A stretch of DNA of 64,000 bases from Janthinobacterium sp. SUN073 (GTDB lineage Bacteria > Pseudomonadota > Gammaproteobacteria > Burkholderiales > Burkholderiaceae_D). Numbering within the stretch: position 1 is the first letter of the stretch; each line of letters opens with the position of its first letter. The translations under genes and the position numbers were made by a program. This document shows positions 35,286 through 52,922 of the stretch, one piece after another. Where the stretch lies: contig NZ_JAPUBT010000002.1 of NCBI RefSeq assembly GCF_030397665.1, positions 281,383-345,382 on the forward strand, in the 5' to 3' direction. The notes below the pieces were generated by a model. That model had not been told where the DNA came from. It searched no databases and was given only the letters and a program-made list of their open reading frames with translations.

Positions 35286-35387
35286 TTTGTCCCGTGGCCG
35301 CCGTTCAAAAGTCCCTATGCACGGCGGCACGAATATTCTATGCTGCGGCGTTGCACTTTCCACATTCCAAGAAAAGAAGGAGCCCCC

Positions 35388-38264
<2,877 letters not shown>

Positions 38265-38272
38265 GTTTGTGC

Positions 38273-38317
38273 CAGATCAACCTCATCCGACGCAGCTTGC
38301 CGGATGAGGTTGATCTG
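38273..38317 (+). terminator. 17-bp perfect hairpin after the M16 gene
   Basis: CAGATCAACCTCATCCG (38273-38289) pairs perfectly with CGGATGAGGTTGATCTG (38301-38317) around an 11-base loop, starting 9 bases after the M16 stop. No T-run follows, so it could be a Rho-type or processing hairpin rather than an intrinsic terminator. Confidence 0.6.
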
Positions 38318-38449
38318 TGCTTCGGCGCGGCCAAACCCGCCTTCAGTCCGCCAATCCCGGCCTTGGTCGGAAAGTATCATCTTGGCAATCTGGTTATCTG
38401 CATACTGTTTTTCGACTCTTCCCGAGTGAAAACCATGACAAGGATATCC

Positions 38450-40804
38450 ATGCACCTGTTCCCTCCCCACCTTTACGCCAGTTGCGTCCTCGCCGTTGCC
38501 GCGCTGCCTGGCGCCCTGTACGCCCAAACACCGGTCCTTGCGGGGCATTGGCAATTCCAGACGACGACGGGCACGACAACAACGAATGGCGTCGAAGTCG
38601 ACCTGATCGACACAGGCATACTCGACATCACCGAAGAGCAAGGCGGCATGCACGCGACAATCTCGTGGCTTGACGAACGGGGCCAGCTCACGCCACCGCG
38701 CACCGTCAACGGGACCGTCGGCCCCGCCGGCACCGTCTTCCGGCATGGCGGCAAGCGCGTCAGCACAGGGAGAAGCGGCAAGGAAGTGAGCACCGACGTG
38801 ACGATCCGCTGGACCTTGCAAGCCAAAGGCAACGTGCTGGGCGGCGAACGCCTGGTCGAAACCGATGAGAACGAACCCAAGCCCGTCACGGGAACGCGGC
38901 TCAGGGAACGCTATGTGCCGCCGGCGCTGCCGGCCGCGCTGCCAGGAACTGCGGCAAGCGCCACCGCGCGCGGCCCGTCTACCCCGGCCGAACGCGCGCG
39001 CGTGGTGCAAATGGCGCAAGCGGCGCAGCACGATCCGCTGGCGCTGCAGCAGCGCGATGGCGTCTGGCTCAGCGCATGGATCGATGCCATTCCCGACCTC
39101 GCGTTTGGCGCCAGCATGCCCGATGACTGGCTGAACATCGCCCCCACGCCGGCCACGCGCGAGGCGCTGCGCTTCCAGTACCTGGCCAGCGTGATGGCCT
39201 TCCAGATCGAACACCCGGACCAGGCGGGGCAGCAAAGCGCCAGCGACATGGCGGGCATGCAGGGGGTGCTGCGCGCCTACGACACCCTGCTGCGACAGGA
39301 TAAGCTGAACCGTTCCGCCAAGCTGGACGCGGCGCTGGCGGCGCGCCAGCAAGACAGGCTGCCCGCCTTCCTGGCTACGCTGTCCGGCAGGGATGCCCGC
39401 ATCGAGGCCGGCATCAAGGCCACATCGTCGCCGTCCGGCGACGCCACGGCGCGCCGGATTGTGGCACTAGGCACCAGCGACCCGCGCGCGATGGACTGGC
39501 TCGACATCCTGAGCAACCGCTTCGGCGGCCGCATGGCCGGCAGCGACGCCTACACGCATGCGGCACAATGGGCGCGCATGCAACTGCGGCAATGGGGCGT
39601 GCAGGCCGAATTGGAAGAAGCCGGTGACATGCCCGTCGGCTTCAACCGCGGCCCCTGGTCGGGCAAGATGCTGGCGCCCCAGGAGCTGCCCTTGCGCATG
39701 GCGACGCCCGCCTACACGGCCGGCACGCGTGGCGTGCAGCAGGGCCTGGCCACCCTGGGACCGGCCACCCTGGAAGAGGCGCAACAGCGCCTCGCGCAAT
39801 TCAAGGACAAATGGGTGCTGACGGGTGGTGAAAGCGGCGGTGGCGGGCGCGATGGCAAGACTATCCACAAGCCCAGGGCCATCACCCGGGTGTTGATGGA
39901 GGCGGGCGCCCTGGGCACCATCCAGGCCGGCGAAGAACCGCTGTATGCCGCCAGCGCGGCGCCCGCCACCTGGGCGACCCTGCCCACCCTGCCCGACATC
40001 AAGCTGGCCGCGCCACAATACGCGGACATCCGCCAGCGCCTGGCGCGCGGTGAAGCCGTCACCCTGGAGTTTGACATCCGCAACTGGTTCTATCCGGGTC
40101 CGGTGCCATATCACAACGTCGTCGCCCGCATTCCCGGCTCGGAAAAGCCGGAAGAAGTCGTGCTGATCGGCGCCCACCTCGACAGCTACGATGGCGGCAC
40201 GGGCGCGGCCGACAATGGCGGTGGCGTGGCCACCATGCTGGAAGCGATGCGCCTGCTGGCGCTATCCGAAGCGAAGCCGCGCCGCAGCATCATGCTGGTG
40301 GCCTTTGGCGCGGAAGAAATCGGCCGCAAGGGTTCGTTCGCGTTCGCCGAGCGGCATGCGGGTGAATTGAACAATATCGTCATGATGCTCAACCGCGACG
40401 GCCGGCCTGGCGCCATCGACGGCATCGCGATTCCCTCGGCTTGGCGGCCCGCGTTTGGCCGGGTGGAACAGGCCCTGCAAGACATCCACCCCGTGTTCGG
40501 CTTCGCCACGACCATCAACGATGTGCCGCGCGATGCCAGCAAGGCGATGAACGCGCGGGCAGGCAGCGATGACGCCGTCTTCAGCCTGCATGGCGTGCCG
40601 ACGCCGAAATTTACCGTGCTCGGCGATTTCGATTATGCGCGCGTGCATCACACGATGCTGGACACGTATGACAAGGTGCTGCCTTTCAGCGCGGCGCAGC
40701 AATATTCGGCCATCGCCATTGCCCTGACCGCGTACGAAGTCGCGAATGCGCCGGAGGAGATCAGCAGGAACGGCTATTACCGCGCCGCCAAAGCGGTACA
40801 GTAG
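38450..40804 (+). CDS. Exported M28 family zinc aminopeptidase
   Basis: A 784-residue protein with a signal peptide (YASCVLAVAALPGALYAQ), an unusual N-terminal extension of about 220 residues, a PA-type insert region and a C-terminal M28 peptidase domain: VVLIGAHLDSYDGGTGAADNGGG (zinc His and bridging Asp), AFGAEEIGRKGS (catalytic Glu pair) and RVHHTMLDTYDKV (zinc His). Residues 20-125 resemble a beta-rich secreted domain. The ATG at 38450 has AAGGAT upstream; 38435 is an alternative start. Confidence 0.87.
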   Translation: MHLFPPHLYASCVLAVAALPGALYAQTPVLAGHWQFQTTTGTTTTNGVEVDLIDTGILDITEEQGGMHATISWLDERGQLTPPRTVNGTVGPAGTVFRHGGKRVSTGRSGKEVSTDVTIRWTLQAKGNVLGGERLVETDENEPKPVTGTRLRERYVPPALPAALPGTAASATARGPSTPAERARVVQMAQAAQHDPLALQQRDGVWLSAWIDAIPDLAFGASMPDDWLNIAPTPATREALRFQYLASVMAFQIEHPDQAGQQSASDMAGMQGVLRAYDTLLRQDKLNRSAKLDAALAARQQDRLPAFLATLSGRDARIEAGIKATSSPSGDATARRIVALGTSDPRAMDWLDILSNRFGGRMAGSDAYTHAAQWARMQLRQWGVQAELEEAGDMPVGFNRGPWSGKMLAPQELPLRMATPAYTAGTRGVQQGLATLGPATLEEAQQRLAQFKDKWVLTGGESGGGGRDGKTIHKPRAITRVLMEAGALGTIQAGEEPLYAASAAPATWATLPTLPDIKLAAPQYADIRQRLARGEAVTLEFDIRNWFYPGPVPYHNVVARIPGSEKPEEVVLIGAHLDSYDGGTGAADNGGGVATMLEAMRLLALSEAKPRRSIMLVAFGAEEIGRKGSFAFAERHAGELNNIVMMLNRDGRPGAIDGIAIPSAWRPAFGRVEQALQDIHPVFGFATTINDVPRDASKAMNARAGSDDAVFSLHGVPTPKFTVLGDFDYARVHHTMLDTYDKVLPFSAAQQYSAIAIALTAYEVANAPEEISRNGYYRAAKAVQ

Positions 40805-40819
40805 ACGTCCACGCCAGCG

Positions 40820-41074
40820 TCACTCGAAGGGATTGGCCACCGACGTCACCTCGGGCGGCGGCAACTGGTCGGGCAGTTCCTGCTTTTCCAGCTGCGCCAC
40901 CACGTCGGCCAGCAGCTTTTGCAGTTGTTTCGCCAGGACCAGGCCCGGCTTGTCCAGGGTCAGGTCGATGTCGCCGCTGAGGCTGATGCGGTCGATGCGG
41001 TTTTCGATGGTCAGGCCGCCGATTTCCAGCACATCGCTTTCATTGGCGTAGGGGACGAATTTCTTTGCGCACAT
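40820..41074 (-). CDS. Hypothetical small protein
   Basis: An 84-residue acidic protein (DVLEIGGLTIENRIDRISLSGDIDLTLDKPGLVLAKQLQKLLADVVAQLEKQEL) with a strong AGAGGAAAAA ribosome site. Predicted as a short beta-sheet plus helix. Cytoplasmic; no family recognised, though such proteins are common in this bacterial family. Confidence 0.68.
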   Translation of the reverse strand: MCAKKFVPYANESDVLEIGGLTIENRIDRISLSGDIDLTLDKPGLVLAKQLQKLLADVVAQLEKQELPDQLPPPEVTSVANPFE

Positions 41075-41095
41075 GGTTTTTCCTCTCAAGGGGGA

Positions 41096-41881
41096 TTATT
41101 TTTTGGACTTGCTATTGATCTTGGGCAAACTCAGCATGCGCAGCTTTTGCTGCCGCGTCAGCGACGGTAACAGATCGATGCCTATCCTGTCTTCCAGTTG
41201 CGCAATGCTCAGCACTTCATACGCCTTGGTATCGACGTTTTCGATAAAGTAGGCGGCACCGGCGCGCTGGCGCGGGCTGTACACGGCCTTGTACAGGTGG
41301 CTGGGCACAATGACTCTTCCCACCTTGCGCAGATTGCCGCCAATAAAAGCCGGCCCCGTGATCACGTACAAATCGCCCTCCTTCTTCGCCATCTTGCGCA
41401 CGGCGCCTTCGATGCCGGCCCACACATAGCGGTTGTTGCGCGCATCCTGCGGCACCATGTTGGCCAGGGTAAAGCTGTCGCGCTGGCTCTGGCGGTCCGG
41501 CATGTCGCCGTTCGGTGCCATGTGGCCACGGTCGAAGCCGCTGCGCGCATAATCGGCCAGTTCCGCGCGCTGAGCGGCGGGCAGCTTGCGTTCGGCATGG
41601 AAGGAGTTTTCGCGCGACAAGTCCTGTGCCGCTTCCAGGTTGTTCGCCGTCAAGTGCTCAGCCGACCACAGGGGCGTGCGGGTGATCCCCGAGTGCATCA
41701 CGCCAAACACGTTGTAGCACAGCTCCTTGGTCGCCACATCCAGCTTGGGGTTGGTGATTTCCGGCTTGCGGCCATCGACGTAATGGGCGGGACAGGCATC
41801 GGCATGCGCCAGGTTCGCGGCAAAGGCGGACGCCAGCAAGCCGCACGCCAGGGTCAGCCTGGCGATCGATCGTTGAATCAT
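41096..41881 (-). CDS. Secreted DNA/RNA non-specific endonuclease
   Basis: A 261-residue protein with a signal peptide (LTLACGLLASAFAANLAHA) and an Endonuclease_NS (beta-beta-alpha metal) domain. The catalytic motif is DRGHM (in SGFDRGHMAPNGDM), followed by FTLANMVPQDARNNRYVWAGIE, which supplies the metal-binding Asn. Two cysteines (ACPAHYV, LCYNVFG) may pair. It would act outside the cytoplasm, for nutrient salvage or extracellular DNA turnover. The gene precedes the 84-residue hypothetical in a likely operon. Confidence 0.92.
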   Translation of the reverse strand: MIQRSIARLTLACGLLASAFAANLAHADACPAHYVDGRKPEITNPKLDVATKELCYNVFGVMHSGITRTPLWSAEHLTANNLEAAQDLSRENSFHAERKLPAAQRAELADYARSGFDRGHMAPNGDMPDRQSQRDSFTLANMVPQDARNNRYVWAGIEGAVRKMAKKEGDLYVITGPAFIGGNLRKVGRVIVPSHLYKAVYSPRQRAGAAYFIENVDTKAYEVLSIAQLEDRIGIDLLPSLTRQQKLRMLSLPKINSKSKK

Positions 41882-42065
41882 ATTTCCCTAAGTGAAATCG
41901 TTGCAGGCCAACATTCTAGCGGACGCCGGCCCCGTGCCACAGTCCTGCCGTGCGGCCCTGCGCAGAGCTGGCGCAAATAAAGGCCAAGCGGCTGCGCACA
42001 GCCATTCATATCTGCTAAGATTGCCTTGATTCGTTCGCATCGACCATTCAAGATCTGGAGAGCAT

Positions 42066-42593
42066 ATGATCAAAAAAACCCTGCTGCTGATCGTCGTTGT
42101 CGTCGCCGCCATCCTCGGCTATGCCACCACCAAGCCAGACACCTTCAGTGTCCAGCGCGAAATCACCATCAAGGCCCCGCCCGAGAAAATCGCTGCCCTG
42201 ATCACGGACTTCCATTACTGGGCCGCCTGGTCGCCGTGGGAAAAGCTCGATCCCGCCATGCGCCGCACCTTTGCGGGCCCGGCCAATGGCCTGGGCGCGC
42301 AATATGCGTGGCAAGGCAATGACAAGGTGGGCGCCGGCCGCATGGAAATCACGGAAGCGGCCCAGCCCGAGCGCACCGTCATCAAGCTGGACTTCCTGAA
42401 ACCGTTCGAAAGCCATAACACCACCACGTTCACCATGACACCCGAGGGTGACGGCACCAAGGTGAACTGGACCATGACGGGTCCCAGCCCTTACGTCAGC
42501 AAAGTGATGACAGTGTTTGTCAGCATGGACCGGATGATCGGCAAGGATTTTGAAAAAGGCTTGAGCAACCTGAAGGCGGCTGCGGAGCGCTAA
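42066..42593 (+). CDS. SRPBCC family protein
   Basis: A 175-residue protein with one N-terminal membrane segment (LLLIVVVVAAILGYATT) followed by a START/SRPBCC-type fold (FSVQREITIKAPPEKIAALITDFHYWAAWSPWEKLDP, MTPEGDGTKVNWTMTG). The membrane anchor places it on the periplasmic side or at the membrane. Ligand unknown. A GGAG ribosome site lies upstream and a clear terminator downstream. Confidence 0.85.
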   Translation: MIKKTLLLIVVVVAAILGYATTKPDTFSVQREITIKAPPEKIAALITDFHYWAAWSPWEKLDPAMRRTFAGPANGLGAQYAWQGNDKVGAGRMEITEAAQPERTVIKLDFLKPFESHNTTTFTMTPEGDGTKVNWTMTGPSPYVSKVMTVFVSMDRMIGKDFEKGLSNLKAAAER

Positions 42594-42614
42594 GGCTGCT
42601 CACCGCCACCAGAC

Positions 42615-42642
42615 ACAGGGCCTGCAAGGCCCTGTTTTCTTT
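42615..42642 (+). terminator. Rho-independent terminator after the SRPBCC gene
   Basis: ACAGGGCC (42615-42622) pairs with GGCCCTGT (42628-42635) around a 5-base loop, followed by a T-rich run (TTTTCTTT). Confidence 0.85.
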
Positions 42643-42665
42643 GCGATTTCATTGCTGGAGTCCCC

Positions 42666-43079
42666 GTGAAACGTCTCATCCCAAGCGGCCGCCTGCTGGC
42701 CCCTCTCATGCTCGCGGCCTGCGCCGGCGCCGGCACCGCCCATGCCCATGATGCGCCCGCCACAATGCCTCCCGTTGCCGCTGACGCAATGGGGCTTGTC
42801 AAAGCGGCCGTGGTAGACATGCGCAACTGCAGCAAGGCGAAATACCCACCGGGCACGCTGCCAGAGGTGGCGCAAGGCACGACTTTCCTGTCCTTGCTGA
42901 TCGGCACCGATGGTGCGGTGCTGGAATCGCAGCTGGAACGTAGTAGCGGCCACCCCCAACTGGACGAAGCAGCGCGCGCAGCCCTCAGCATTTGCCATTT
43001 CACGCCAGCGCAACAGAACGGCCAGCCAGTACAGCAATGGGCCACCGTCGCTTACGTATGGGAACCAGAAGCCAAATAG
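42666..43079 (+). CDS. TonB C-terminal-like exported protein
   Basis: A 137-residue protein with a signal sequence (LAPLMLAACAGAGTAHA; the AAC could also serve as a lipobox) and a TonB-C-like domain: KYPPGTLPEVAQGTTFLSLLIGTDGAVLESQLERSSGHPQLDEAARAALSICHF and QPVQQWATVAYVWEP. It has no long proline linker or N-terminal membrane anchor, so it is not a full TonB energy transducer. Role unknown. Confidence 0.8.
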   Translation: MKRLIPSGRLLAPLMLAACAGAGTAHAHDAPATMPPVAADAMGLVKAAVVDMRNCSKAKYPPGTLPEVAQGTTFLSLLIGTDGAVLESQLERSSGHPQLDEAARAALSICHFTPAQQNGQPVQQWATVAYVWEPEAK

Positions 43080-43090
43080 GCGACGTCAGC

Positions 43091-44104
43091 TCAGAACTGC
43101 TCGATCCACGCCGCCAGGTGGTCCGGCGTGAGCGCCGGTTCAGCCTGCACCACCTTGCCCTGCAAGCCCAGTTCCGTCTTGCTCAGCTGCAGGGACCATC
43201 CGCGCCGCGCCAGCCACAGCAAGCTGGCCAGCCAGAATGCGTGGATGGACGAGACTGGCGTGGTGGTCGGCGTTTCCAGGAATTCCGTCAGCAGGCGTCC
43301 ATCGAGGAACAGGGCCGTGCCGCCCTGGCTTTGCAGCGCCGCGCCAAACACGGGCAGCAGCATGTCGATCGCCTGCTCCACGCCGCGCCCCGGATGCTCG
43401 CGCTCGATCGTGTCGAGCTGCTGGCGCACGGCGGCGGCAAAGGCGGTGCCGCGGAAGGCTTCCGAACTGACCAGGTCGGCATAATCCATCAGCAGCCAGT
43501 CCGGCTCGGGCGGCGTGACGCCGGCCGTCAGGGCCGCCGACAGATACGCTTCCACGGGCAGCTGCTGTTCCGGACCGGCCAGGCTGGCACACAAGGCGTA
43601 CAGGGTGCCGATGCGGTTGGCGACGGCTTGCCGCTGGCGCACCATCAGCTTTTCGCGCAGCAGCTGGGCGTGTTCATTGCGCAGCCGCGCCAATTCCAAA
43701 GCCTGCTTGAGTTCCATGCGCAGCGCCGCGATATCCCACGGCTTCTGGATGTAGCGGTGGATCTGCCCCTGGTTGACGGCTTCCACCGTGTGCTCCAGTT
43801 CGGAATACGCGGTGGTCAAAATGCGCACGATGTGCGGATGGCGGTCCCAGCAATACGACAGCAGCTCATTGCCGTAGGCACCCGGCATGCGCTGGTCCGA
43901 CACCAGCACGGCGATGCGCTCGGCTTGCTCGTCGAGGATGCGCTTGCCCTCCTCGACCGAGGTGGCCGTCAGCACGTTGGCCAGCGGCGCGATGGCGCGC
44001 TGGAAATATTTGAGGGCGTTGGCCTCGTCATCGACATAGAGTATCGTCGGCAAGCCTTGCGCCGGCTCACGCTGAGCCGGCAAACGCAGATTGGCGTCAA
44101 TCAT
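43091..44104 (-). CDS. Response regulator, PhcQ-like (fourth gene of phc-type operon)
   Basis: A 337-residue protein with an N-terminal receiver domain (ILYVDDEANALKYFQ; phosphoacceptor Asp70 in VLVSDQRMPGAYG; IRILTTAYS; YIQKPW) and a C-terminal helical output of about 200 residues without DNA-binding or enzyme motif (PPEPDWLLMDYADLVSSEAFRG). The order after a methyltransferase, a kinase and a receiver-kinase hybrid matches PhcQ of the Ralstonia phcBSRQ operon. Its start overlaps the preceding gene by 8 bases. Orthology is inferred from layout, not from alignment. Confidence 0.8.
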   Translation of the reverse strand: MIDANLRLPAQREPAQGLPTILYVDDEANALKYFQRAIAPLANVLTATSVEEGKRILDEQAERIAVLVSDQRMPGAYGNELLSYCWDRHPHIVRILTTAYSELEHTVEAVNQGQIHRYIQKPWDIAALRMELKQALELARLRNEHAQLLREKLMVRQRQAVANRIGTLYALCASLAGPEQQLPVEAYLSAALTAGVTPPEPDWLLMDYADLVSSEAFRGTAFAAAVRQQLDTIEREHPGRGVEQAIDMLLPVFGAALQSQGGTALFLDGRLLTEFLETPTTTPVSSIHAFWLASLLWLARRGWSLQLSKTELGLQGKVVQAEPALTPDHLAAWIEQF

Positions 44105-45194
44105 GCTCGTTCCTTATATGTACTGGAAAATTCAGGGTGACCGTGGTGGCACTGCCAAATTCGGTGGCGATGTCGATGTTGCCGCCGAACGATTGCATCA
44201 TGCGGTGGCAAAATACCATGCCCCAGCCCTTGCCTTCGTTGCCGCTGGCACTCACGGGGTCGAGCAACAGCTGCGCAACAATCTCGGGGGCGATGCCGGC
44301 GCCATTGTCGCGCACCGTGATGCGGCCCGCATCGATGCGGATGCCGATCGCAGGATGGTCTTGCTCACCGGCCGAGCGCAAGGCGTTCGCCAGCACGGAC
44401 GATAAAATCAGCGCGACGCAATTGGGCGACTCGGCAATGGCGAAATCCTCGCCCAGCTCCACCGTGATGGAAGCGCGCTGGGCCGTGCTCAAGGGATAGC
44501 TGTCGAGCAAGGCGGCCAGCAGTTGGCGCGCGCTGCCGGCGCTGCGTCCGCCCTGCATGCCCGGCCCGGCGCTGGCCAGGCGCACCGTGTCGACAAAGCT
44601 GGCCAGCACGGACAAACAATAGCGCGCATTGTCGTGCATCAAGGCGGCCGCTTCGCCGATCTCGGCCTGTGCTGCGGCGTCCGCCTGCGCGCGGCGTGCG
44701 ATGCCGCGCGCAAAATTGGCGATGGCCGCCAGCGGCGTGTTCAATTCGTGCGCCAGGAAGGCCAGCGATTCCTCCATCGCCACCAGGCCCTGGCGGCGCG
44801 CGGCGCGCTCGCGTCCCGTCTGCACGGCCAGCTGCAGCGCCGTTTGCATGGCGACCAGGTCGAGCGGTTTTTCCAGCAGGCGGAACAGCGAGCCGCCGTT
44901 GATCAGTTCCAGCAGCACATCCTTGTCCGCATACGCGGTGACCAGCATGCAGACGATATGCGGATAGCGCTGCGCCACCTCCTGCAGCAGCTCGCTGCCC
45001 AGGCGGTCCGGCATGCGGTAATCGGTGACGAGCACATCGATGTTGGCGGCCTCATCTTTCAGCATGGCCAGCGCCGCATCGACGCTCTGCGCCGTCAGCA
45101 CGCGGTAGCGCGCACCGACGGCGCGCGCGAAGTACTTGCAGGCGAGCGCTTCATCGTCCACGTACAGCACGCTGGCACGGCTATCGTTGTCCAT
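44097..45194 (-). CDS. Receiver-histidine kinase hybrid, PhcR-like
   Basis: A 365-residue soluble protein in the unusual order receiver first (VLYVDDEALACKYFARAV; Asp58 in VLVTDYRMPD; FRLLEKPLDLVAM) then histidine kinase (EESLAFLAHELNTPLAAIANFARG with His149; GRITVRDNGAGIAPE; EGKGWGMVFCHRMMQSFGG). This receiver-plus-kinase layout is the known peculiarity of Ralstonia PhcR. The ATG overlaps the stop of the upstream kinase gene (TAATG), so translation is coupled. Confidence 0.85.
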   Translation of the reverse strand: MDNDSRASVLYVDDEALACKYFARAVGARYRVLTAQSVDAALAMLKDEAANIDVLVTDYRMPDRLGSELLQEVAQRYPHIVCMLVTAYADKDVLLELINGGSLFRLLEKPLDLVAMQTALQLAVQTGRERAARRQGLVAMEESLAFLAHELNTPLAAIANFARGIARRAQADAAAQAEIGEAAALMHDNARYCLSVLASFVDTVRLASAGPGMQGGRSAGSARQLLAALLDSYPLSTAQRASITVELGEDFAIAESPNCVALILSSVLANALRSAGEQDHPAIGIRIDAGRITVRDNGAGIAPEIVAQLLLDPVSASGNEGKGWGMVFCHRMMQSFGGNIDIATEFGSATTVTLNFPVHIRNEHD

Positions 45195-46537
45195 TAACGG
45201 CCCTCCCAGTCGGAGCGCTGCAAGTCAAAATTCATGCTGGCCCATACACCCAGCTCGCTTTCGGCGGAGAGGGTGCCGCCGTGGCGCTCGATCACGCCAT
45301 AGCTGATGCTCAGGCCCAGGCCCAGCCCCTGCCCCACTTCGCGCGTGGTGAAGAACGGTTCGAACACGCGCGCCAGATTTTCCGGGGCGATGCCGGGGCC
45401 GTTGTCGCGCACGCTGATGCGCAGGCGGTTCTCGTCCCAGTGAGCCGTGATGCGGATCTCGAACGGCGGCGCATTGCCCTTGCGCATGGACAGCACGGCA
45501 TTGCCCAGCAAATTGATCAGCACGCCCACGATGGCCGCCTCGTCGCCGCGCACCAGGGTGTCGACCGGCAAGTCGTGGCTGATGCTGACATTCTTCGTTT
45601 CATGCCCCACCAGGCGGATGGCCGCGTCGAGCGCGCTGCGGAACTGGAAGTGCCCCGTTTCCAGCTGGTTGCCGCTCTTGCGGTAGGCAAAGGTTTTTAA
45701 ATCGGACACGATGTGCTGCACGCGCAGCATGCCCTGCTTGGCGTCGGCCAGGCATTCGCTCACCAGCGCGCTTTGCTTGGCGGCCGGGTCTTCAATGGCC
45801 ACCTCGATGGCCATCATGCAGAAATTCACGGGGTTATTGACTTCATGCAGCATGCCGGCGGCCAGGGTGCCGATGGCGGCCATTTTCTCCTGCTGCAGCA
45901 TCTGCCCCTTGATATCGGCCAGGCTTTTGTTGGTTTCTTCCAGCTGCGTGTTCTTTTGCGCCACTTCCGCCTTCAGCTGGAACAGCATGAAGCGGGCGCG
46001 CTCATTGAAATAGGTAAACACGGCGCTGATGCTGGCCGACATGATGAGGAACAGGCAGTTGACGACAAACGTGGCAGGCAAGTCGAAGCCGCCCGCATGC
46101 CAGGCGCAGGCGGCCACGTACAGCAGGCAGGAAATGGCGCCGAAGACCATGTTTTGCCACAGGCCGAAGGCCAGCACGATGCCCGACGAATAAATGGCCA
46201 AGGTCATGCCCACGTAATAGATCGAGGTGGCGCCTTCCGTGACGGCGATCATCCAGGCGATCATGATTTGTGGCAGGATCAGCCAGACGAAGGTCAGCCC
46301 CTGGATGCGGTCTTGCGCCCAGCGCGTGCGCATGGCCAGCACGACGCAAAAGATCAGCACGGACACGAGAATGCGCGCGCTGGTAAACGCCGACTGCTTG
46401 TCCGGATACAGGGCCGAATCGAGGCCCATGCCCAGCAGGATCAGCACGATGCCCGTGTAAGCGCCGCCGCGGCTGAATTCCAGGCGGAAGTCGCGCAAAA
46501 CGGCCGTGTAGCCGGCGTGCAGGCCTGGAGTATCCAT
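45194..46537 (-). CDS. Membrane sensor histidine kinase, PhcS-like
   Basis: A 447-residue kinase. About six hydrophobic segments fill residues 25-180 (for example YTGIVLILLGMGLDSAL, LTFVWLILPQIMIAWMI, TFVVNCLFLIMSASISAVF), a multi-pass sensor suited to a lipid-like ligand. A coiled region is followed by the phosphoacceptor motif AAGMLHEVNNPVNF (His231) and an HATPase domain (NLLGNAVLSMRKG, SVRDNGPGIAPENL, GQGLGLGLSISYGVIERHGG). In Ralstonia PhcS the phosphorylated His is at about residue 230, very close to here. The ATG shares its A with the methyltransferase stop. Confidence 0.86.
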   Translation of the reverse strand: MDTPGLHAGYTAVLRDFRLEFSRGGAYTGIVLILLGMGLDSALYPDKQSAFTSARILVSVLIFCVVLAMRTRWAQDRIQGLTFVWLILPQIMIAWMIAVTEGATSIYYVGMTLAIYSSGIVLAFGLWQNMVFGAISCLLYVAACAWHAGGFDLPATFVVNCLFLIMSASISAVFTYFNERARFMLFQLKAEVAQKNTQLEETNKSLADIKGQMLQQEKMAAIGTLAAGMLHEVNNPVNFCMMAIEVAIEDPAAKQSALVSECLADAKQGMLRVQHIVSDLKTFAYRKSGNQLETGHFQFRSALDAAIRLVGHETKNVSISHDLPVDTLVRGDEAAIVGVLINLLGNAVLSMRKGNAPPFEIRITAHWDENRLRISVRDNGPGIAPENLARVFEPFFTTREVGQGLGLGLSISYGVIERHGGTLSAESELGVWASMNFDLQRSDWEGR

Positions 46538-47931
46538 CAAGGAATGCTCACTTCCGCGAACACATTCACGCCCGTGACGTCGACATAGATTTTCGGCGCC
46601 GTCGCATGTTCGGGCAGCAAGGCCGACAAGCCCGCTTCATTGCGATAGATCAAATGCCACTCCAGCAAATGCTCCATGCCGAACTTGCCCGGATTGTCGG
46701 CGTGCACATTCGTCACCAGCAGGCGCCCGCCCGGCCCCACGCGCGAGGCGAAGTGCAGCAGCAGGCGCGCGCACACCTTGTCGGACAGGTAGTCGAACAG
46801 GCCGGCGCAATACACGGCGTCGAAACTGCCGGGCAAGCCCGCGGCGCCCGAGCCGTGGCGGCGCTTGAGCAGGTTGTGCACGGAATCGTGCACATACTCG
46901 ATTTCCACCACTCTTCCCGTGCGCTGCATGATGGTGGTCAGGCGCGCGCGTGTCCAGTCCAGCGTCTCGCCGCTGAAGTCGACCAGTTCAAAGGCCAGCC
47001 ACTGCGCATCCGGGCACGTTTCAAGGAAACGCTGCACCTCGATGGCGGGGCCGCAGCCCACGTTGAGCACTTTATACACGCGCCCTGCCGCCCGTGCCTC
47101 GGCCGCCTTGTGCGCCAAAAATTCCGTCAGGATATCGATGCGGTTGCGGTGCGCCGTGGCGACAGCCGCCTGCAAAAAGGCCGCATTGACAATCTGAAAA
47201 TACGTGCTCGGGCCCTGGCGCGGGTCGTCGAGCAGCTGGTTGACCATCTGGTAATCGCCCGCATAGCCGAGCGGTTTGGTAAACGTGCGGAAGACGAACG
47301 GCGCGCGCAGGATCAGCGGGTGCAGCGCCGCTTGGGCGAACGCGCGGTGGGCCGGCGCCCGTTCTTCCTCGACCAGCGAGGCTTCCACCTCGAGCTGGCG
47401 CAAGTACAGCTGGGTTTGCTCCATCAGCGGCAAGGCCAGCTCGTCGAAGATGTCGGCGCGCAGGCGGCCATTTTCCTTCGGCAGCGAATCGGACAAATCG
47501 ACTTGCTCGACCCAGCGCGCCACTTCCGACAAAAAGGCGCGCATTTCGTTGACGACGATCTGGTAATCGCGACGGATACGGAAGCGCTCGCCCCAGCCCG
47601 CGACAAAGGCGCTGGACTCTTTCGCCACGGCGCCCTTGACCACCACCACGTCGCTCAGCTCGCGCCACTCGTCGATCAGGGTGACGGAAACGATGGCGGT
47701 CAAGCCCGTGTTGACGCTGCTGATGACGACGGCCTTGCCCACATAGGCATTCTTTGCCCCCATGCGCACCGTCAGGTCATTGAGTACCTCGCTGACCTGC
47801 ACAATCGAGTAGGGATTGTAGATTTCCATAACCAGCGAATTGCGCTGCAAGTTGAAAATCGTGCCGCGCACCGCCTCACCCTGGGTGTTACGGAAACTGA
47901 CGACTGGATCGATCTGCGATTGTGAATACAC
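46537..47931 (-). CDS. SAM-dependent methyltransferase, PhcB-like (candidate 3-hydroxy fatty-acid methyl ester synthase)
   Basis: A 464-residue protein. Residues 1-100 form a PilZ-like beta-rich domain (FRNTQGEAVRGTIFNLQRNSLVMEIYNPYSIVQ). Residues 110-270 are helical, and 285-440 are a class I methyltransferase with motif I VLNVGCGPAIE (288-298), the acidic region FELVDFSGETLDWTRARL, and FDAVYCAGLFDYLSDKV. PhcB of Ralstonia methylates 3-hydroxy fatty acids to a volatile quorum signal; the gene order here (methyltransferase, kinase, hybrid, regulator) supports the same role. The start is a GTG at 47931 without a clear ribosome site, so the N-terminus is uncertain. Confidence 0.8.
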   Translation of the reverse strand: MYSQSQIDPVVSFRNTQGEAVRGTIFNLQRNSLVMEIYNPYSIVQVSEVLNDLTVRMGAKNAYVGKAVVISSVNTGLTAIVSVTLIDEWRELSDVVVVKGAVAKESSAFVAGWGERFRIRRDYQIVVNEMRAFLSEVARWVEQVDLSDSLPKENGRLRADIFDELALPLMEQTQLYLRQLEVEASLVEEERAPAHRAFAQAALHPLILRAPFVFRTFTKPLGYAGDYQMVNQLLDDPRQGPSTYFQIVNAAFLQAAVATAHRNRIDILTEFLAHKAAEARAAGRVYKVLNVGCGPAIEVQRFLETCPDAQWLAFELVDFSGETLDWTRARLTTIMQRTGRVVEIEYVHDSVHNLLKRRHGSGAAGLPGSFDAVYCAGLFDYLSDKVCARLLLHFASRVGPGGRLLVTNVHADNPGKFGMEHLLEWHLIYRNEAGLSALLPEHATAPKIYVDVTGVNVFAEVSIP

Positions 47932-48150
47932 GATTGGGCATTATCAAGTTGCCCGGCTGCCGGCGCACCACGCTGGGCGCGCCAGTTTCCAGGCTGGGTT
48001 AAGGCACGGCACACCGGTCGTCGCCGCCGTACCGGAGCGCCTCAAAGCGTGTCTGTTCGCTCTCTGATCGAGTGTACTATGGATGTAGCAGAACGGGCAA
48101 TTGTTCCTACTGGAATGACTGTCCGTGGCGCTGGCGCGCAACGCCGCCAT

Positions 48151-49176
48151 TCAACCGGCCACGAACAGTGCCAACGCATGACGCAACAGCTGCGGCGTTT
48201 GCCCCGTCCAGCGCTTGAACGAGCGGCGAAAGTTGGTGGCATCATGAAAGCCGAGGTAGGCGGCCACGGCGTCGTTGTCGTAACCATGCGCCTGGAACAG
48301 GTAGATGGCCTTGTGCGCGCGCACCTGGTCCAGCTCAGCCTGGAAATGCGTGCCATGGCGTGCCAGGTGGCGCTTGAACGTGGCGGGACTGACGCCGAAT
48401 TCCTGCGCCGTGCGCTCCAGCGTGGGCGCGCAGCGGATGTTCGCCAGCAGGTAGTCGTACAGCGCGCCGAGCAGGCTGGCGGCGGGCACGGGTGCCAGCG
48501 CGGCCGCCCGCAAGGCCAGCGCGGCCGCCGTGGCATTGCCGCGCGGCCAGGGCTTGTCCAGCCAGCTGGAATCGATGAGCATGGCGTCGACCTGGCAATC
48601 GAAGCGCAGCGCCTGGCCCAGGTGCACTTCGTGCTGCTCCACGTGGCGGGGCCGCGCGCGGTTGAAGCAGAAGCGCCACGGCAGCGCTTCGCCGGCCAGC
48701 CAGCGGCACATGGCCGCCAGCGCCGTCATGTGCATTTCCACCAGAAACGGCAGCTGGCTGGGCGCGCCGAACGCATCGACCCAGTACAGCACATGCAGCT
48801 CGCCCGCCTCGCGCAAGCGCGGTTGCAGCAGCGGACACAGCAAGGGATGAAAATCGCACAGGATGGTCAAGGCCTGGCGCAGATTCTGCGCCTGCAGCAA
48901 GGCATGGCTGGCCGCGCCGTAATGGCCGGGCAGCATTTGCTGGCCCAGCATGAAGCTGGTGTCGGCACAGTCCAGGCCGCGCGCCACATTGGCCAGCAAT
49001 TGCAGGTATTGCGCGGCGCTGACCTGGCTTTCCGCACAGGGCAGCGCACCGCCGTCGAGGCCCGTGCCCTTGAGCAGCGGCGCCACAGCCAGTTCGCGGC
49101 TGCGCGCGTAGTCGAGCACCAGCGCCGGCTGGTGATGGGCCGCGATGCTGGGGTCGCCTTGCTGGTTCAGCGGCAT
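48151..49176 (-). CDS. AraC family transcriptional regulator (OruR/Arabinose_bd type)
   Basis: A 341-residue regulator with a long N-terminal ligand domain (PF12625 style: LVLDYARSRELAVAPLLKGTGLDGGAL, YLQLLANVARGLDCADTSFMLGQQMLPGHYGAASHALL) and a C-terminal AraC double helix-turn-helix (TLERTAQEFGVSPATFKRHLARHGTHFQAELD, then NDAVAAYLGFHDATNFRRSFKRWTGQTP). Its ATG overlaps the stop of the upstream GGDEF gene (ATGA). It lies 219 bases upstream of the PhcB-like gene on the same strand, so read-through into that operon is possible. Confidence 0.9.
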   Translation of the reverse strand: MPLNQQGDPSIAAHHQPALVLDYARSRELAVAPLLKGTGLDGGALPCAESQVSAAQYLQLLANVARGLDCADTSFMLGQQMLPGHYGAASHALLQAQNLRQALTILCDFHPLLCPLLQPRLREAGELHVLYWVDAFGAPSQLPFLVEMHMTALAAMCRWLAGEALPWRFCFNRARPRHVEQHEVHLGQALRFDCQVDAMLIDSSWLDKPWPRGNATAAALALRAAALAPVPAASLLGALYDYLLANIRCAPTLERTAQEFGVSPATFKRHLARHGTHFQAELDQVRAHKAIYLFQAHGYDNDAVAAYLGFHDATNFRRSFKRWTGQTPQLLRHALALFVAG

Positions 49177-50078
49177 CAGGCAGGCGCGGCGGAACTGATC
49201 CCGGCACCGGAGCGCGGCGTTTCCACGGCACGGCTCAGCTCGGCCAATACCACTTCCGGCACGCCATCGGTGAGCGAGCAGGCATGTCGCAGGCTCAAGC
49301 GGATTTCGCGGTTGTCGTTGGCGTGGTGGCGCATCTGCCCCACCATGGCGCACAGGTGGCGCGCCTTCACGGCCGCATCCTCGCGCGACACGCCTGGCAT
49401 CAGCACGGCGAAGCGGTCGCCCGCATAGCGGCACAGCAAATCGTCATTGCGCAAGTTCAGCAGCAACATGTGGCCCACGGCTTGCAGCACGCGGTCGCCT
49501 TCGCGGTGGCCGTATTCGCGGTTAATCAGGTGAAAGCTGTCGATATCGAGCAAGACCAGCGCGCAATCGAGGCCGGGCCGGCGTTCCTGTTCCAGGCGCA
49601 TCTGCGTGCGCAGATAGCTGGCGTCGGCCAGCTGCGTGATGCGGTCGAAGGCGCGGTGGTCGCGGAACAGGCGTTCGCGCTTTTGCAGATGTTCGTTCAG
49701 TCGGAACTGTTCCTGGCGCCAGTAATACATGCCGATCGTCAACACCAGCATGCCAAATGGAATCAGGGCTTCCAGCCAGTTATCCCACACGGCGCTCTTG
49801 TCGACGGCAAAGAATTCATCGAGGCAATCTGCCCAGGACCCCAGCATGATGGCGCACAGGCCGCCGGCGATCAGGCTCGTCACCCGGCCGCGCGGACGGC
49901 TGCTGAGGGTAAACAAGAACCAGATGCCCGCCATGACGGCCGTGCCGCCTTCGCAAACGATATCCATCCACTTCCAGATGGCGAACGGTTTAAGGTGGCC
50001 CAGTGTAGCGTACAGGAAAAAGAACAGGGGCAATGCCAGCGCGGCGGCAATCAGGCTGTTACGGTGCAACGGCAGCAT
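49176..50078 (-). CDS. Membrane GGDEF-domain protein with degenerate active site
   Basis: A 300-residue protein with four membrane segments (residues 8-28, 41-58, 66-84, 103-120), a coiled linker, and a GGDEF domain. The catalytic signature is AGDRF (219-223), where the essential second acidic residue is replaced by Arg, so cyclase activity is probably lost. The I-site RNDD (210-213) five residues upstream is kept, which would allow c-di-GMP binding. It is coupled to the AraC gene by an ATGA overlap. Start at 50078 has AAGG upstream. Confidence 0.85.
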   Translation of the reverse strand: MLPLHRNSLIAAALALPLFFFLYATLGHLKPFAIWKWMDIVCEGGTAVMAGIWFLFTLSSRPRGRVTSLIAGGLCAIMLGSWADCLDEFFAVDKSAVWDNWLEALIPFGMLVLTIGMYYWRQEQFRLNEHLQKRERLFRDHRAFDRITQLADASYLRTQMRLEQERRPGLDCALVLLDIDSFHLINREYGHREGDRVLQAVGHMLLLNLRNDDLLCRYAGDRFAVLMPGVSREDAAVKARHLCAMVGQMRHHANDNREIRLSLRHACSLTDGVPEVVLAELSRAVETPRSGAGISSAAPA

Positions 50079-50317
50079 GTGGGAAACCTTTAAAAGTGGT
50101 GCTGTCGCCACGATAGCGCCCGCCCATGACGGCACGATGACATACCCCGCGCCCGTGCGGCAGGTGCAAACGGCTCAACATGAGCAACGCAACTGATGCA
50201 AATCCGGCAAGCCATTGCCCGTGCGCCCTGCGCTGGCAGGTCATTTCAGCTCACCATGGGTCATTTCCGGCCGGAAAGCGTTCACAAGCCCTTGTTTTCA
50301 GGGTGGCAAGCCCTTGC

Positions 50318-50351
50318 CTGTCACGCAACCGTCATATTTGCTGCCTAGAAT
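50318..50351 (+). promoter_or_regulatory. PHO box with -10 element upstream of the receptor-phytase operon
   Basis: CTGTCAC (50318-50324), spacer GCAA, and CCGTCAT (50329-50335) reproduce the 7-4-7 direct-repeat PHO box bound by PhoB. A -10 hexamer TAGAAT (50346-50351) follows after exactly 10 bases, the normal spacing where PhoB replaces the -35 element. The ATG lies about 33 bases further on. The rest of the 306-base gap (50079-50384) shows no gene. Confidence 0.75.
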
Positions 50352-50384
50352 CCGCCCGGTTCCCTCCCCCTAACCGAGCTCTTC

Positions 50385-52922
50385 ATGAAAACCATGCACA
50401 CTTCGCCCCCCTCCCCGCTGCGCCTGACGGCCCTGGCCCTCGGCATCATGGCCGTCTTCAGCGGTCAAAGCCATGCGCAAGCGCAAGATGCGGATGGCTT
50501 GCCGGCCGCCACCGTGGTCGTCAGCGGCCAGCGCGCCAGCCTGCGCAACGCCATCGCAGCCCAAGAGAAAGCCGACAACATCATCAGCGTCATCAGCAGC
50601 GACGATATCGGCGGCTTGCCCGATAAAAACGCGGCCGAGGCGCTGGCCCGCTTGCCAGGCGTGTCCGTGCAGCGCGACCAGGGCGAAGGCCGCTACATCA
50701 CGGTGCGTGGCCTGGGCCCGGACTTGAATGCGGTGACCATCAACGGCGCGCTGGTACCGTCGCCGGAAGCGGGCCGCCGCGCCGTGGCCCTGGATATCCT
50801 GCCGGCCGGCCTGATCCGTACCCTGGAAGTCTCGAAGACTTTATTACCGGAAATGGACGCCAATTCGCTGGGCGCCACCATCGAAGTCAAATCGCTGTCC
50901 GCCTTCGACTTGCCGGGCACGCTGCTGTCGGCCAACGTGGGTGCCAGCCATGATGAAAAGACGGGCAAGACCAGTCCCAGCGGCGGCGCCCTGTGGGCCC
51001 AGCGCTTCCTCGACGGCAAACTGGGCGTGGCTGCCGGCCTGAGCGCGGAAAAGCGCTCGTTCGGTTCCGATGACGTGGAAACGGGTGGCGCCTGGAGCAA
51101 GGGTAAATTGTCGGGCCTGGAATTGCGCGACTACCTGCCCGTGCGCAAGCGCGGCGCGCTGGCCGTCAACCTCGATTACCGCCCGGAAGCGGGCAACAGC
51201 TGGTTTTTGCGCTCTTTTGTGAGCGAATTTTCCGACGATGAAGTACGCGACCGCCTGACCATCAGCAATATCGCGGGCGGCAGCCTGGCCGAAGGCCAGA
51301 CGGCCAGCGCGCGCGCCGAGCGCCGCATCCGCCAGCGCAAGTACACGCAGCAAGTGCGCTCGCTCGTGCTGGGCACGCAGCAGAAATCGGGCGACTGGAC
51401 GCTGGACGTGAAAGGCGGCATGAGCCGCGCCACGGAAGACACGCCGGAGTCCTTGAACGACGGCCGTTTCCGTGGCACCAGCAATTTTTCCGGCATCAGT
51501 TTCACGGATACGCAGGAGCCGAAATTGAGCGGCCCCGCCTCGCTGTACGATCCGGCCAGCTATGCACTGAACGCCATCACCCTGCAAAAGCGCTACTCGA
51601 AGGACAATGAACACCATGCACGCATCGACCTGGCGCGCAAGTTCGATATCGCCACCCTGAAATTCGGCGCCAAGCTCAGCCGCCGCGAAAAGACCAATGA
51701 CACGGATCAATGGGCGTATAACAGCAGCAAGGCCAGCAGCGGCAATTACTGGGGCGCCGGCTCGACCTCGATGAGCAACTTCGTGCAGGGCCACACCCTC
51801 GACTACGACCTGGGCAACATCGGCGTGGCGCTGGACCCGCTTCTCATCCGCGCCCGAGTGGCCGGCCTCGACCGCGACAAGGCGCGCCTGGCCACCGAGT
51901 CCATCATCAACGATTACCGCATGCATGAAGACATCAACGCCATGTATGTGCAAAACAGCTACGACTTCGACGCCTGGCACATCCTCGGCGGCGTGCGTCT
52001 TGAGCGCACCAGCTTTGAAGCGGCCGGCTCGCAAGTGGACAGCGCCGGCTTGTCCACGCCCTTGACGCGCGAACGCTCGTATACCAACTGGCTGCCCAAC
52101 CTGCAAACCCGTTATGACGTCGATCAAAAGACCAGCGTGCGGGCCGCCTGGACGCAAGCCGTGGTGCGCGCCAACTTCAGCCAGCTGGCACCGGGCATCA
52201 GCCTGGCCAGCAACACGGAAGCCGTGATCGGCAACCCGGACTTGAAACCGCTGAAAGCCAACAACCTGGACCTCGGTATCGAGCGCGTGCTGGGCAACGA
52301 CGGCGTAATGTCGGCCTACGGTTTCTACAAGGACATCAAGAATTTTACCTACACGACGAACCTGGCCGGCACGGGTCAGTGGGCCAATTACACCTCGGCC
52401 ACCTCGTATGCGAACGGCGACGCGGCCAAGGTGAAAGGCATCGAACTGGCCTACATGCAGCCGCTGCGCATGCTGCCGGCGCCGTTCAACAAGTTCCTCG
52501 TGGGCGTCAACGGCACCCTGAGCACCTCAAGCGCGCAAATCGGCCGCTACGACAAGGCCAGCAAGCAGCAGCTCACCCGCGACATCCGCCTGCCGGGCCA
52601 GTCGAACCAGGTCATGAACTTGATGCTGGGCTATGAAACGGGCCCCGTCAGCGCCCGCCTGGCCCTCAACTACAAGTCGCCGTATCTGCTGGAAATGGGC
52701 AGCGACATCCTCGATCAAAGCCAGGACCACATCGTCGCCAGCCAGAAGCAGCTCGATTTCTCGCTGTCCTACCAGATCAACAAGCAGTTCCAGGTGGTCT
52801 TTGAAGCGGCCAACCTGAACAACGAGAAATACTATGTCTACCAGGGCACGAAGCAATACAACGTGCAGAATGAACAATACGGCCGCACTTTCAAAGTGAG
52901 CCTGAAAGCCAGCGCCTTCTGA
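50385..52922 (+). CDS. TonB-dependent receptor (TonB-Xanth-Caul type)
   Basis: An 845-residue outer-membrane receptor: signal peptide (LTALALGIMAVFSGQSHAQ), plug domain at about 40-170 with ISSDDIGGLPDKNAAEALARLPGVSVQRD and TVRGLGPDLNAVTINGALVPSPE, and a large barrel ending FKVSLKASAF. The GLPDKNAAEALxRLPGV pattern is typical of the TonB-Xanth-Caul subfamily that imports sugars and other organics. The downstream phytase starts inside its stop codon, so it probably takes up phytate or its products (inositol phosphates). Confidence 0.9.
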   Translation: MKTMHTSPPSPLRLTALALGIMAVFSGQSHAQAQDADGLPAATVVVSGQRASLRNAIAAQEKADNIISVISSDDIGGLPDKNAAEALARLPGVSVQRDQGEGRYITVRGLGPDLNAVTINGALVPSPEAGRRAVALDILPAGLIRTLEVSKTLLPEMDANSLGATIEVKSLSAFDLPGTLLSANVGASHDEKTGKTSPSGGALWAQRFLDGKLGVAAGLSAEKRSFGSDDVETGGAWSKGKLSGLELRDYLPVRKRGALAVNLDYRPEAGNSWFLRSFVSEFSDDEVRDRLTISNIAGGSLAEGQTASARAERRIRQRKYTQQVRSLVLGTQQKSGDWTLDVKGGMSRATEDTPESLNDGRFRGTSNFSGISFTDTQEPKLSGPASLYDPASYALNAITLQKRYSKDNEHHARIDLARKFDIATLKFGAKLSRREKTNDTDQWAYNSSKASSGNYWGAGSTSMSNFVQGHTLDYDLGNIGVALDPLLIRARVAGLDRDKARLATESIINDYRMHEDINAMYVQNSYDFDAWHILGGVRLERTSFEAAGSQVDSAGLSTPLTRERSYTNWLPNLQTRYDVDQKTSVRAAWTQAVVRANFSQLAPGISLASNTEAVIGNPDLKPLKANNLDLGIERVLGNDGVMSAYGFYKDIKNFTYTTNLAGTGQWANYTSATSYANGDAAKVKGIELAYMQPLRMLPAPFNKFLVGVNGTLSTSSAQIGRYDKASKQQLTRDIRLPGQSNQVMNLMLGYETGPVSARLALNYKSPYLLEMGSDILDQSQDHIVASQKQLDFSLSYQINKQFQVVFEAANLNNEKYYVYQGTKQYNVQNEQYGRTFKVSLKASAF

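Follow-up and report, generated by a model that had tools for sequence, protein, structure and literature searches.

A phcBSRQ-type quorum-sensing module in a Janthinobacterium genome without a detected PhcA orthologue

Here we report four overlapping genes of Janthinobacterium sp. SUN073 that appear to encode a quorum-sensing module of the phcB-phcS-phcR-phcQ type. They lie in a window of 64,000 nucleotides (the whole stretch of DNA that was analysed; assembly GCF_030397665.1, contig NZ_JAPUBT010000002.1, positions 281,383 to 345,382), where the list of open reading frames (ORFs) gives four minus-strand ORFs at 43091-47931, with overlaps between neighbours of 4, 1 and 8 nt:

46537..47931, minus strand: phcB orthologue, S-adenosylmethionine (SAM)-dependent methyltransferase, 464 aa, GTG start (ORF, Pfam, genome search, alignment, model, tree)
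45194..46540, minus strand: phcS orthologue, membrane histidine kinase, 448 aa, TTG start, phospho-His232 (Pfam, alignment, genome search)
44097..45194, minus strand: phcR orthologue, receiver (Asp58), HisKA (His149) and HATPase_c, 365 aa (Pfam, alignment, genome search)
43091..44104, minus strand: phcQ orthologue, receiver (Asp70) and a C-terminal region without assigned family, 337 aa (Pfam, model, alignment)

Gene order, strand, overlaps, domain layouts and key residues had been described in an initial annotation, and were confirmed by the ORF list, Pfam searches and motif positions. The methyltransferase gave three Pfam methyltransferase domain matches at residues 278-426, all slightly below the cut-offs, and its SAM motif VLNVGCGPAIE begins at residue 288. 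PhcS matched HisKA and HATPase_c; its membrane passes are those stated in the initial annotation. Its phospho-accepting histidine is present in the motif HEVNNP, at residue 232 in our numbering and not at 231, as annotated. The hybrid protein PhcR consists of a receiver followed by HisKA and HATPase_c, with Asp58 and His149 in place. PhcQ, annotated as a response regulator with an unassigned output domain, matched only as a receiver carrying Asp70, and the part C-terminal to the receiver had no Pfam match. The genes thus stand in the order of a Phc system in an operon-like run.

A scan of named genomes confirmed at least 564 relatives of PhcB, and the best 80 loci were kept. Methyltransferase, PhcS and PhcQ matches occurred together in all 80, and the four genes had the same order in the loci of genus g190, so that the grouping is far beyond chance. 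We call genus g190 Ralstonia-type; the genus name is inferred, since it was chosen because of a 347-aa LysR protein starting MVNVDTK about 10 kb after phcQ and because of the length of PhcR (368 aa in all g190 loci but L112, with 371 aa). Identities of the window proteins to four Ralstonia-type rows were 63-65% for PhcB (64.6% to L103 and L104), 57-58% for PhcS, 47% for PhcR and 50-52% for PhcQ. At E<=0.001, a search of the own genome gave a single match to the window methyltransferase. The best-match tests of the other three proteins were each genome-wide in one direction only: a Ralstonia-type PhcS found the window kinase first (58%, E 3.9e-168; next match 9.5e-26), a Ralstonia-type PhcR found the window PhcR first (49%, E 6.5e-95) and the receiver of the window phcQ second (E 3.7e-26), and the window PhcQ had its best match at the phcB locus both in one Cupriavidus genome (55%, E 2.2e-103) and in one Ralstonia-type genome (52%, E 1.1e-95).

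In the Ralstonia solanacearum complex PhcB has 464-468, PhcR 368-374 and PhcQ 336-337 aa, and PhcA has 347 aa, like the LysR protein of g190 (PMC8578825); the window PhcB and PhcQ lie inside these ranges and PhcR is 3 aa shorter. Changes of PhcB R22 and PhcQ R154 impaired the Ralstonia system (PMC6989110), and these residues align with R22 and R164 of the window proteins and are kept in 16/16 rows of both the PhcB and the PhcQ alignment. Mean column identity of PhcB was 76% over 32 sequences, with YCAGLFDYLSDK invariant. From the single PhcB match, the identities of 47-65%, the best matches and the PhcB tree, the four genes are, at the level of sequence, orthologues of phcB-phcS-phcR-phcQ and a real member of this conserved family, as the initial annotation had proposed.

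Ranked by PhcB identity, the best 80 loci comprised 14 Janthinobacterium rows at 90-97% and two at 87%, followed by Janthinobacterium, other Oxalobacteraceae, Paraburkholderia, Cupriavidus and Candidatus Nitrotoga at 68-72%. The midpoint-rooted PhcB tree (83 rows, with 71 of the 80 named loci and 11 further loci; L062, L075, L081, L083, L085, L088, L040, L046 and L078 left out; group labels our own) placed the window with Ralstonia-type and Cupriavidus PhcB and inside a set of 12 Janthinobacterium rows including itself (support 100/92). These identities and this placement agree with the Janthinobacterium/Oxalobacteraceae host assumed in the initial annotation. The label Janthinobacterium needs three changes on the tree, because CG3, fluminis and two rows from metagenome-assembled genomes (MAGs) sit apart. 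No Ralstonia solanacearum record was among the best 80 loci, and the one row titled Ralstonia (L071) stood inside Cupriavidus.

Relatives of PhcB are widespread in Betaproteobacteria. The family sample had a match in 56/294 genomes at E<=1e-3 (52 full PhcB, 4 weak fragments), the Burkholderiaceae sample in 58/259, and the order sample in 14/300 (10 full, own genome included). All 33 own-genus genomes among those listed have phcB, as one open frame in 32 and as two frames in G498, and we take it that no genome of the genus missed the gene, since the listed non-matches start only at other genera. Two genomes of the same family (G319, G327) have a second, distant PhcB match, an open frame of about 490 aa with 30-32% identity.

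PhcR is often reduced or lost. It was full-length in 51 of the 80 named loci, while 21 (20 of Paraburkholderia, one of Burkholderia) keep only its receiver, with 133-134 aa (for example at about 12754-13158 in L039-L049 and other Paraburkholderia loci), two have it shortened (L062, L083) and six have no recognised PhcR between phcS and phcQ (L033, L034, L035, L050, L054, L060). Such frequent reduction or loss fits the little effect of a phcR deletion in Ralstonia, where quorum-dependent phenotypes are reported as largely unchanged (PMC8578825).

No PhcA-like LysR gene adjoins the operon, as the initial annotation had noted, and a search of the whole genome with the Ralstonia-type PhcA as query found no orthologue: the best LysR protein, with all 45 candidates scored, was 34% identical over residues 4-252 (E 3.6e-30). 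The genome has five LysR-type matches to PhcA at E 1e-22 to 1e-30, which is the background LysR level of other genomes. A search of 32 genomes found orthologues (at least 71% identity) in 4/4 Ralstonia-type and 3/3 Cupriavidus genomes and in G585; the remaining 24 included three without a match at E<=1e-20 and 21 (7 of them Janthinobacterium) with only the LysR background of 25-36%. PhcA was found at E<=1e-36 in 0/294 genomes of the family (same sample size and filter as for phcB). The positive control detected it at E<=1e-60 in 49/259 Burkholderiaceae genomes of three genera, all of them phcB-positive; they coincide with the full set of phcB-positive genomes in g94, g190 and g176. The nine phcB-positive Burkholderiaceae without PhcA were eight genomes of g118 and G616; g118 is identified as Paraburkholderia because the coordinates in G767 and G779 match those of the named loci L058 and L042, respectively. 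In these samples PhcA never occurred without phcB, but phcB often occurred without PhcA. A Ralstonia-like circuit is thus incomplete at its output here, because no PhcA orthologue was found in the genome itself or in the sampled family. PhcA may have been gained in Ralstonia and Cupriavidus or lost elsewhere: the tree is midpoint-rooted, and its deepest-drawn row, L114 (G585), has PhcA.

Two side observations concern the same genes. Matches to phcA were in pieces or shortened in G599 (two pieces), G681, G689 (inferred Ralstonia), G691 and G706 (Cupriavidus). In G616 (locus L113), whose PhcB groups with Cupriavidus rows, PhcA gave no match at E<=1e-60 and PhcR is absent between phcS and phcQ.

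We consider it probable that SUN073 carries a conserved, orthologous phcBSRQ module in a PhcA-less genome; if the module works, it would have to act on gene expression by way of something other than a PhcA orthologue. Several points weigh against this reading. The genus Ralstonia of the comparison genomes was deduced from the PhcA-like gene and protein lengths. The PhcA searches of the family and of the control scored at most 7-8 candidates per genome (family: 7), and the empty family search proves nothing alone and needs the Burkholderiaceae control. A diverged LysR protein could still do the job of PhcA. Cupriavidus metallidurans CH34 has the operon together with phcA, yet the methyl ester 3-OH PAME was not purified from it (PMC2864759).

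The Ralstonia signal, produced by PhcB and perceived by PhcS, is methyl 3-hydroxymyristate or 3-hydroxypalmitate (PMC8578825). By homology, the window PhcB would methylate a 3-hydroxy fatty acid or an activated form of it, giving a diffusible methyl ester whose chain length the homology does not fix, and membrane-bound PhcS would sense this ester and change its own phosphorylation via His232. Phosphate would then flow to the receivers of PhcR (Asp58) and PhcQ (Asp70). Ralstonia PhcQ has a strong effect on quorum-dependent genes (PMC8578825) or, in another account, on signal synthesis (PMC6989110). The leading, though weak, candidate for the output in SUN073 is the LqsR-family regulator JqsR of a co-resident jqs system; the main alternative to it is that PhcQ acts directly on PhcB or on another partner. 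The jqs genes are those of the gene set jqsA-jqsS-jqsR of Janthinobacterium sp. HH01 (PMC3566124):

L165 3931-7656 (G000:C1:790001-802000), on another contig than the phc operon: jqsA-jqsS-jqsR locus, jqsA divergent from jqsS/jqsR

The jqsA product is a 414-aa alpha-hydroxyketone autoinducer synthase (NF005526, 540 bits, cut-off 428; E 3e-99 to the CAI-1 synthase 3hqt), and the locus further encodes a histidine kinase and the 335-aa JqsR, which matches LqsR (6sy9) over residues 3-307 (E 4.9e-47). The view of the initial annotation that the phc operon would be a second system beside the JqsA type therefore stands at the gene level. PhcQ itself lacked full-length similarity to the LqsR/PhcX family, matching 6sy9 only over residues 61-141 (E 3.1e-4).

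The module could converge on JqsR, with PhcS/PhcR/PhcQ and JqsS both setting its phosphorylation and the ester and the alpha-hydroxyketone sharing one output; we regard this as possible but rather unlikely. It draws on the company that phcB keeps. An LqsR-family match (E<=1e-40) was present in 17/19 phcB-positive family genomes outside the genus, including a weak one in G320 (33%, E 8.4e-50), as against 53/242 phcB-negative ones (Fisher one-sided p 4e-9; by genus 8/10 versus 3/30, p 8e-5), and all 33 own-genus genomes listed carry both. In Ralstonia the LqsR-family gene phcX stands beside phcB, and 81.4% of the genes under both PhcX and PhcA go opposite ways (PMC10653808); the phcX-like protein of the Ralstonia-type locus L105 matches 6sy9 (E 2.9e-50), and JqsR of SUN073 is 47% identical to a Ralstonia-type PhcX-like protein. 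Two Cupriavidus genomes have an LqsR-family gene about 11-13 kb from phcB. However, kinship is only partly corrected for in these counts, lqs often occurs without phc, and phc has already been described as a betaproteobacterial cluster that stands alongside lqs in many Betaproteobacteria (PMC10653808). The phcB-positive genomes G300 and G349 had no LqsR-family match in the family sample, which weakens JqsR as a universal output. Moreover, jqsR lies with jqsA and jqsS on another contig, and PhcS and JqsS are only distantly related, with 22% over 225 columns of their catalytic parts. Separately, a phcX-like homologue adjoins phcB or phcQ in Candidatus Nitrotoga (L087 8735-9766), a Burkholderiales MAG (L036 432-1544) and G585 (L114 14821-15867); for the gene beside phc, the published account names Hydrogenophaga, Cupriavidus and Ralstonia (PMC10653808).

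Somewhat less likely still, the operon may be a relative of the Phc system whose signal has changed, the window PhcB methylating some other compound. The signal does not follow from orthology, because 3-OH PAME was not recovered from operon-bearing CH34, for which a structural variant was proposed (PMC2864759). Ralstonia strains differ in making 3-OH PAME or 3-OH MAME (PMC8578825). The high conservation of the methyltransferase weighs against this reading, although it bounds the enzyme family and not the chain length. We think it improbable that a diverged LysR protein of the genome is a functional PhcA without being its orthologue: the five LysR-type matches named above would offer candidates, but identity of 25-36% is equally seen whether or not a genome has phcB, and among the second matches in Ralstonia-type genomes. 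That the PhcA-less operon is a decaying relic, as the missing PhcA, the lost or truncated PhcR of some relatives and the split phcB of G498 might suggest, is very improbable, because a single, uninterrupted phcB frame is kept in 32 of the 33 own-genus genomes listed, PhcB is 87-97% identical in 16 Janthinobacterium loci, the motifs are intact and blocks upstream of the operon are conserved.

The DNA flanking the probable PhcA-independent module was compared with that of 74 of the 80 named loci and 11 further ones (without L062, L075, L081, L083, L085 and L088), and has the following features:

48058..48110, minus strand: conserved block upstream of phcB, candidate operon promoter (TTGCCC, 18 nt, TACACT; alignment with 16 Janthinobacterium loci)
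48151-50135, upstream: AraC-type regulator (Arabinose_bd and HTH) overlapping a GGDEF protein
50385-54802, other strand: TonB-dependent receptor and phytase (PF02333)
42066-42593, downstream: Polyketide_cyc2-family protein
41096-41881, downstream: non-specific DNA/RNA endonuclease, in 16/16 close Janthinobacterium loci
35340-42593 region, downstream: M16 and M28 peptidases

The upstream block is a putative promoter only, because it has 8/12 consensus bases and was not listed by the consensus scan, which gave two promoter-like sites (shuffles 0.9) and one terminator-like site on the plus strand (shuffles 4.9). Rfam had nothing in 42500-50500 at gathering scores. The AraC and GGDEF genes occur in 14 of 16 close Janthinobacterium loci, and the receptor and phytase in 13. 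Beyond these, the AraC-GGDEF pair was within the flanks of 3/13 other Oxalobacteraceae-type loci (CG3 and two Pseudoduganella, the latter more than 5 kb away) and was absent from all Cupriavidus, Paraburkholderia and Ralstonia-type loci compared; this patchy presence sets it apart from the module, and it was rejected as the missing output.

The protein ends were examined with predicted models. That of PhcQ (pLDDT 85.6) has a long helix, more helices and a two-stranded end. Foldseek and VIA searches with it covered the whole protein, not the C terminus alone, and matched mainly the receiver (model part 17-150). The modelled shape suggested a degenerate histidine kinase at the C terminus, which we do not claim, the hhalign profile comparison with the kinase parts of PhcR and PhcS giving nothing (probability 0.1 and 0.8%). 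The C-terminal part of PhcB is a predicted class I methyltransferase domain. Its N terminus is predicted, with moderate to low confidence, as a six-stranded beta domain at about residues 10-85, which contains R22, the residue that influences signal output in Ralstonia. A c-di-GMP-binding PilZ domain was considered as a possible reading of it, but there was no Pfam PilZ match, a search of solved structures with a profile of residues 1-99 gave nothing credible (best E 0.47), and Foldseek named no PilZ protein among the 50 rows listed, which were mostly methyltransferases.

The Phc circuit is usually described as a signal acting through PhcA. A genus-wide operon in a family sample without detectable PhcA suggests that making and sensing the signal are separable from PhcA, and phcBSRQ looks, from gene content, like a signalling module of this kind. 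A more tentative extension, which we rate as unlikely though attractive, is that it is a portable fatty-ester module, not tied to PhcA, that outside the Ralstonia-Cupriavidus lineage feeds another output, most attractively the LqsR-family regulator of a co-resident alpha-hydroxyketone system, and so in Janthinobacterium integrates two chemically unrelated signals on JqsR; if this were true, Ralstonia phcX next to phcB would be a trace of the phc-LqsR link. Janthinobacterium adds a host for studying the targets of PhcR and PhcQ, whose mechanism is unsettled even in Ralstonia, and a second candidate signal in a genus where jqsA, which affects violacein, is the route described so far (PMC3566124). 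A phcBSRQ operon outside Ralstonia, as described in the initial annotation, is not new, having already been published for Cupriavidus (PMC2864759) and for betaproteobacterial clusters with lqs (PMC10653808). The main text of the latter names no Janthinobacterium, and a limited literature search found no earlier mention of phc in the genus, from which we do not claim that it is unpublished. What appears to deserve attention is the variant without PhcA and the regularity with which an LqsR-family regulator accompanies it.

Among known systems, phcBSRQ-phcA of the Ralstonia solanacearum complex shares gene order, lengths, layouts, phospho-sites and the equivalents of PhcB R22 and PhcQ R154 with the window, and differs in that no PhcA orthologue was found here and that the LqsR-family gene stands in the jqs locus and not beside phcB. 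C. metallidurans CH34 (Rmet_2949-52) likewise has phcBSRQ outside Ralstonia and, in contrast to what was found in this Janthinobacterium, also phcA (Rmet_2977; PMC2864759); the window PhcB is about 69% identical to PhcB of Cupriavidus other than CH34. The jqs system of HH01 also combines a synthase with a histidine kinase and a response regulator (PMC3566124), and SUN073 has a locus of this kind. The jqs and phc loci are unlinked and differ in their synthases, of the PLP (pyridoxal phosphate) type in jqs and a methyltransferase in phc, and the similarity to LqsR spans most of JqsR but only part of the receiver of PhcQ. Ralstonia PhcX and Legionella LqsR resemble PhcQ in having a receiver and an output region in which no DNA-binding domain is recognised, but their homologue in SUN073 is jqsR, in the jqs locus, and not phcQ.

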